A stretch of DNA of 64,000 nucleotides from Aquipuribacter sp. SD81 (GTDB taxonomy: Bacteria > Actinomycetota > Actinomycetes > Actinomycetales > JBBAYJ01), in the NCBI RefSeq assembly GCF_037153975.1, contig NZ_JBBAYJ010000013.1, positions 1 through 64,000 on the forward strand. The letters are read 5' to 3'. The translations under genes and the position numbers were made by a program. Shown here in pieces: positions 33,472 to 33,714 of the stretch; positions within the stretch are counted from its first letter, which is position 1; every line of letters starts with the position of its first letter. Under the pieces are notes generated by a model that had not been told where the DNA came from, did not search any database, and was given only the letters and a program-made list of their open reading frames with translations.

Positions 33472-33544
33472 GCGAAATGCCCTCGACGTCCCGCGGTGCG
33501 CCGACGTACGGTTCCGAGCACACGGAAGGGAGGTGATCCGAGGA

Positions 33545-33583
33545 ATGACAATCCTTCGGACGAGTGAGGTGGCTGCCCGCTGA
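33545..33583 (+). CDS. 12-codon leader peptide candidate
   Basis: ATG-initiated ORF encoding MTILRTSEVAAR then TGA. The start is 5 nt after a Shine-Dalgarno with 11 bases of perfect anti-SD complementarity, far stronger than any other in the window. The last codons form the 5' arm of the 10-bp stem, so a translating ribosome would melt it. No run of one regulatory codon is present, so it need not sense an amino acid; ribosome or initiation state is an alternative signal (inference). Confidence 0.5.
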   Translation: MTILRTSEVAAR

Positions 33584-33640
33584 GCGGGAGCCCCTGAACC
33601 AAGGACTCGACTGCCAGGCGTAGACCACGGCAGCCACCGC

Positions 33641-33700
33641 AGCCCCCGGGTGTCGCACCTCGTCCACGCGACGGGTGACCGTGTCACCGCCCCGGGGGCT
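33641..33700 (+). terminator. Terminator-like long hairpin
   Basis: AGCCCCCGGG (33641-33650) is perfectly complementary to CCCGGGGGCT (33691-33700). Inside sits a second hairpin, GGTGAC (33674-33679) with GTCACC (33683-33688). There is no T-run, as usual for high-G+C actinobacterial terminators. It lies 14 bp before the SMP-30-like gene. Confidence 0.65.
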
Positions 33701-33714
33701 GTCCCCTGCCCGCG

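Follow-up and report, generated by a model that had tools for sequence, protein, structure and literature searches.

A family of stand-alone bacterial RNAs with a conserved micro-ORF and a pseudoknot is a candidate class of ribosome-gated small RNAs

In leader-peptide attenuators such as rnTrpL of Sinorhizobium the released RNA can act in trans. The leader ORFs of erm-type macrolide resistance control the adjoining gene in cis, in a way that depends on the sequence of their peptides, and the peptides of SgrS/SgrT and SR1/SR1P are conserved and active. Dual-function sRNAs as a class are sRNAs with a translated small ORF (PMC11133741). The RNA described here belongs to Rfam family RF02471 (Ms_IGR-5, "Actinobacteria sRNA"), which is typed as an sRNA gene. 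The family has been observed as a transcript in Streptomyces lividans (PMC8079986), as an sRNA transcription unit in S. avermitilis (PMC8780764) and also in M. smegmatis, where IGR-5 is overlapped by ncMSMEG15794c (PMC10454040). Ribosome-protected reads on the RNA have been reported for M. abscessus and M. smegmatis (PMC4974804). Our literature search found no description of an ORF in this RNA or of a function for it.

We analysed one stretch of 64,000 nucleotides from Aquipuribacter sp. SD81 (the window). The only Rfam family that cmscan detects across these 64 kb is RF02471, at 33520-33707; it scores 60.2 bits, where the gathering threshold is 45, and the match spans the complete model (1-184). 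The element is real and a full-length member of a catalogued family. The initial annotation had described a self-contained RNA element at this place; its own promoter and terminator bear this out, and what has to be added is that the element was already catalogued. The RNA folds better than shuffled sequences (z -2.7). It occurs once in the Aquipuribacter sp. SD81 genome, in 29 of 59 close genomes and in 132 of 198 genomes sampled across the class, nearly always as a single copy. One genome (G139) has two differing copies (L059 and L116). A pattern search of 33 same-order genomes that lack an Rfam match (a subset of G004-G245) found no divergent copies either. Several families of the same order are without a copy detectable by the Rfam model or the pattern, showing that the RNA can be lost.

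Comparison of the copies at the sequence level shows a promoter, a near-complete 16S complement, an obligatory micro-ORF, a stem P2, a pseudoknot and a further hairpin, P1, that competes with the pseudoknot for the same GGAC. Our preferred reading, to which we give about even chances, is that RF02471 is a stand-alone, ribosome-gated sRNA, whose fold would be set by ribosomes and whose output would be in trans. The features, all on the + strand, are as follows.

33474..33512, + strand: promoter, whose three features keep their positions in 117 aligned copies (column table)
33474-33478, + strand: A-tract GAAAT, part of the promoter
33483-33488, + strand: -35-like TCGACG, with an 18-base spacer to the -10
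33507-33512, + strand: -10 TACGGT, present in the sequence
33526..33539, + strand: extended Shine-Dalgarno (SD), from the genome's own 16S 3' end and conservation in relatives
33536..33561, + strand: P1 hairpin, formed by the SD 3' half and the ORF's GGAC around a loop that holds the start codon (minimum-energy fold, RNAalifold, moderate covariation)
33545..33583, + strand: micro-ORF MTILRTSEVAAR and stop (ATG ... TGA), intact in its start, frame and stop in 117/117 and 80/80 copies
33558..33564, + strand: pseudoknot 5' strand GGACGAG (codons 5-7), covarying with the terminator loop; 7 bp possible in the window
33566..33571, + strand: internal SD-like GAGGTG, 15 bases 5' of the stop codon, with a putative role at the stop
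33568..33577, + strand: P2 5' arm GGTGGCTGCC, where the ORF ends (variable pairs covary with z 4-13; RNAalifold)
33617..33628, + strand: conserved one-sided loop GGCGUAGACCAC (family consensus GGCGAAUCCCA), adjoining P2 (column profile)
33629..33638, + strand: P2 3' arm GGCAGCCACC, on the same basis as the 5' arm
33640..33701, + strand: branched terminator hairpin P3 (RNAalifold, many compensatory pairs)
33652-33672, + strand: first sub-hairpin of P3, with loop N[G/A]UCC
33659..33665, + strand: pseudoknot 3' strand CUCGUCC, in the loop of the P3 sub-hairpin, covarying with the ORF

The promoter of the relatives has an A-tract, a -35 and a TANNNT -10 at fixed places, and the -10, which had been singled out from the window alone as TACGGT, keeps its place in the 117 aligned copies. 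The transcript is expected to start near 33519-33520 (ACAC). The A-tract, which adjoins the -35 region upstream and is conserved in relatives, resembles an UP element, a likeness that hints at a strong promoter.

Downstream of the predicted start, positions 33529-33539 read GGAGGTGATCC, an exact 11-base complement of the 3' end of the genome's own 16S rRNA (GGATCACCTCCTTTCT), as had been noticed from the sequence alone. With one G-U pair the complement grows to 14 bases (33526-33539). The 11-mer itself is found at four places in the genome, the rRNA among them, which is near chance level; by contrast, conservation of the extended SD in relatives is far beyond chance.

We followed the micro-ORF in two sets of copies: 117 obtained via the Rfam model, with an extraction pattern that favoured GAGGTG and not the start, frame or stop, and 80 found with a DNA pattern that imposes no frame. 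The sets overlap slightly and merge to 194 distinct copies. In every one of the 117 a start codon is properly spaced from the SD and shares its frame with the GAG-GTG codons; each also has a stop, which lies at +15 from GAG in 116 copies and one codon further in the other. Start codons of the two alternative frames fall within the same interval in just 34 and 10 of these copies. Start, frame and stop are likewise kept in 80/80 of the pattern-found copies. The triplet 21 bases upstream of GAG is TTG in 85, ATG in 61 and GTG in 38 of the 194 copies, its first base is never C, and in the remaining ten the start is displaced by whole codons. The stop codon is TAG in 161, TGA in 23 and TAA in 9, with a lone CAG that directly precedes a TAG. 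The distance from SD to GAG ranges over 33-42 bases; that from start to GAG varies by whole codons only, the pattern of selection for translation. The 12-codon ORF proposed by the initial annotation is thus present at 33545-33583, with its frame kept in all compared copies.

The internal GAGGTG is in every copy analysed (the extraction pattern favoured this motif but tolerated other bases at its ends), and in nearly every copy it lies 15 bases before the stop, mirroring the SD-to-start distance of 14-16. Given this likeness in spacing, GAGGUG might serve as a pairing site for the anti-SD of a ribosome that has reached the stop.

Two such sites could make the RNA a sponge for 30S subunits, in which the extended SD and the internal GAGGUG capture small subunits and lower initiation elsewhere, with the ORF incidental. 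The initial annotation had proposed such titration or a report on ribosome or initiation activity, and either may apply. The strong complementarity to the 16S 3' end expected of a 30S-titrating RNA is there (in the window 11 bases exact, 14 with one G-U), all copies have an extended complement, and GAGGUG is invariant. However, a binding site needs neither start, frame nor stop, and all copies have them, with length changes in whole codons only. Pure titration does not explain a frame kept through elongation and stop, and from these sequence patterns we regard a sponge as unlikely.

The ribosome-gated reading, by contrast, gives the ORF a part in the fold. P2 joins the end of the ORF to a strand beyond it, with 10/10 pairs between GGTGGCTGCC and GGCAGCCACC in the window. 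Its 3' arm, when placed by a pairing-blind position profile, falls at the pairing-based position in 180/180 copies, and at the six variable positions Watson-Crick pairs are more frequent than in shuffles (z 4 to 13). The stem, which the initial annotation had drawn at 33568-33577/33629-33638, therefore covaries strongly, and both it and the ORF are clearly conserved in relatives. The first four pairs of P2 (GGUG:CACC) are nearly invariant, suggesting a second duty of GAGGUG. The one-sided loop beside P2 reads GCAAUCC in spirochaete copies. From 126 copies aligned independently with MAFFT, RNAalifold returned P1, P2 and P3. The last of these is the long terminator hairpin that had been predicted, here at 33640-33701; its T-tail is weak in the window and clear in spirochaete copies. 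Support for P1 is moderate, weaker than for P2 and the pseudoknot: its four extension pairs are about 2.4 to 3.9 standard deviations more frequent than shuffles give on average, and 15/180 copies have an A-C mismatch in P1, with the pseudoknot retained.

The pseudoknot, which RNAalifold cannot draw, joins codons 5-6 (GGA[C/U]N) with the terminator loop N[G/A]UCC. With the loop located independently of the ORF, the 180 copies comprise 156 with GGAC/GUCC, 15 with GGAU/AUCC, 4 with GGAU/GUCC and 5 mismatches, some of which are probably misplaced loops. Pairing between the wobble position of codon 6 and the base preceding the loop tetramer is seen in 128/180 copies, against 78 +/- 6 (maximum 101) in 2000 shuffles. 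When all column pairs are ranked by corrected mutual information, the top six are pairs of P2 and the pseudoknot (z 8.7 to 18); in these covariation statistics the place of a tree correction is taken by sequence weights (effective number 66 of 173), by shuffles and by the all-pair ranking. A longer pseudoknot that would take in codon 7 or the first base of codon 5 is unsupported across the family.

GGAC at 33558-33561 is used both by P1, where its partner is the [G/A]UCC of the SD, and by the pseudoknot. As both need the same GGAC, the two pairings are mutually exclusive. Their energies in the window, -9.1 kcal/mol for P1 and -10.7 kcal/mol for the 7-bp pseudoknot helix, are roughly balanced, a crude indication only. 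The switching stems of the initial annotation therefore have a counterpart, but the exclusive pair is P1 and the pseudoknot; the alternative partner that it had placed at 33611-33615 (CUGCC) is present and not conserved as such, and we rejected it as a switch partner after the RNAalifold and alignment analysis.

The strands that these pairings hide could also serve as seeds. The RNA could be a translation-gated sRNA that regulates mRNAs by base pairing, its seed being either the P2 3' strand or the NGUCC loop: the [G/A]UCC loop is conserved in nearly all copies, and a ribosome on the ORF would free both strands. However, both strands co-vary with their internal partners, as internal contacts should, and no targets are known. 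On the covariation pattern we think such a regulator rather improbable, a notch below the sponge.

For the ribosome-gated reading the identity of the codons would matter little, and the peptide does vary freely. Codon 5 is R, W or G; codon 7 mostly R, C, S or G; codon 10 A, T, V, F or S; codon 11 A, V, T and others; and codon 12 R, S, G or V. What is constant lies at the base level, namely GGA, the G of codon 7 and GAGGTG. The 12-residue peptide could nevertheless be the product of a dual-function sRNA or small-protein gene, given that the frame is universally conserved and that residues E8 and V9 are invariant. Yet codons 5, 7 and 10-12 exchange radically unlike residues, so that the peptide lacks the conservation seen in dual-function sRNAs; the invariant E-V is the GAGGUG base motif, and spirochaete peptides end differently, in GR, ER, EQ, LL or LF. 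A functional peptide is disfavoured by these replacements, and we hold it to be quite improbable. Whole-codon length changes together with radical residue changes suggest that translation itself seems to matter and the peptide does not.

The neighbours of the element also bear on how it acts. In the window a photolyase lies upstream and an SMP-30-like gene starts a few bases downstream on the same strand; many copies have PdxH and citrate synthase downstream, and mycobacteria and others have an aminodeoxychorismate lyase on the upstream side, with a nitrobindin-like gene that converges on the element from downstream (all names read from sequences). No downstream gene is conserved among the RF02471 copies; neighbours vary and are often convergent. 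By contrast, promoter and terminator are conserved across copies, and with a promoter at fixed places and a terminator of its own the RNA is best read as a stand-alone transcript. That it is a cis attenuator or leader of the SMP-30-like gene, a lactonase that the initial annotation had named as a possible target, is very improbable in spite of the same-strand position just upstream: the terminator intervenes, downstream genes differ among copies and often lie on the opposite strand, a synteny on which we rejected this role, P2 and P3 do not overlap and so share no terminator arm with an antiterminator, and in S. avermitilis the element forms an sRNA transcription unit (PMC8780764).

A phage or plasmid origin was rejected: the one match in viral_contigs (L256) lacks the ORF and arms of the element, and a second scan gave none. 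A search of plasmids for the element gave no match. A further "phage" match, MT835602.1, was set aside as well. In this "unverified bacteriophage" record from human faeces the element (L266, MT835602.1:13873-16935) stands between ordinary actinobacterial-looking genes, and the record is probably a mislabelled chromosomal contig.

Pattern searches found RF02471-like copies in other classes of the phylum. Four of five lineage representatives outside Actinomycetia (L239, L242, L253 and L254) have a stretch in the middle domain that is complementary to their own SD (z -3.3 to -6.1); this stretch (for example GGACCACCTCCT) resembles the 16S 3' end. An internal anti-SD is not a general feature, as nearly all Actinomycetia copies lack it (mean z about 0). 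Rfam lists the family as actinobacterial, yet one order with a Spirochaetia MAG carries it (L193). The element is in 9/30 genomes of the GTDB order of L193 (L193, L257-L265), and the remaining 18 genomes of its class gave no match. The nine copies are mostly AT-rich, have clear T-tails and keep the ORF in frame in 9/9, and their loops match their ORFs, as in GACCAG:CUGGUC of L193. The family extends, with the same anatomy, to one order of Spirochaetota, a phylum name that rests on the single named record L193.

Under the ribosome-gated reading these parts would work as follows. In the nascent RNA P1 would form first, hiding the start codon and a portion of the SD. When the terminator hairpin has folded, its NGUCC loop would capture GGACN, P1 would open and the SD would be freed, to bind 30S strongly through an unusually long SD:anti-SD helix. 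The ribosome would read the 12 codons, peel open the pseudoknot and P2, and at the stop be held by the internal GAGGUG placed for it, so that either the P2 3' strand and the NGUCC loop are exposed or the ribosome stays parked. Initiation capacity would set the balance of two states, folded and ribosome-occupied. The open or ribosome-bound form may then act in trans, on ribosomes or by base pairing, since there is no conserved downstream gene; the peptide would be a by-product. Tentatively, and as a possibility that we hold to be less likely than not, the RNA may be an old one common to two phyla that measures initiation-competent 30S via the 16S 3' tail, the translation of about 12 arbitrary codons flipping it between pseudoknotted and open trans-acting forms.

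An RNA kept across most Actinomycetia, including mycobacteria and streptomycetes, is filed as non-coding and has no known function. That its frame is conserved while the sequence of the peptide is free, and that this frame takes part in a pseudoknot, points to translation itself as the input; if true, this would be an RNA that reads ribosome availability with no downstream gene.

Several known systems share parts of this design. The Rfam entry describes a non-coding sRNA of Actinobacteria, and the consensus structure printed there has no partner for the P2 3' strand, lacks the pseudoknot and ignores the ORF; the maintained micro-ORF, the covarying P2, the pseudoknot and the occurrence outside Actinomycetia are new beyond it. 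The entry could be rebuilt. Leader-peptide attenuators such as rnTrpL also combine an SD, a short ORF, a stem overlapping the ORF and a terminator, but the RF02471 RNA has no downstream operon and no regulatory codon run, and its ORF stem and its terminator are not alternatives to each other. Dual-function sRNAs such as SgrS/SgrT and SR1/SR1P likewise have a translated small ORF, but RF02471 keeps the frame and not the residues. In erm-type leaders, too, the position of the ribosome on a short ORF selects between exclusive RNA pairings; those leaders are cis-acting and peptide-dependent, whereas the RF02471 RNA would be neither.
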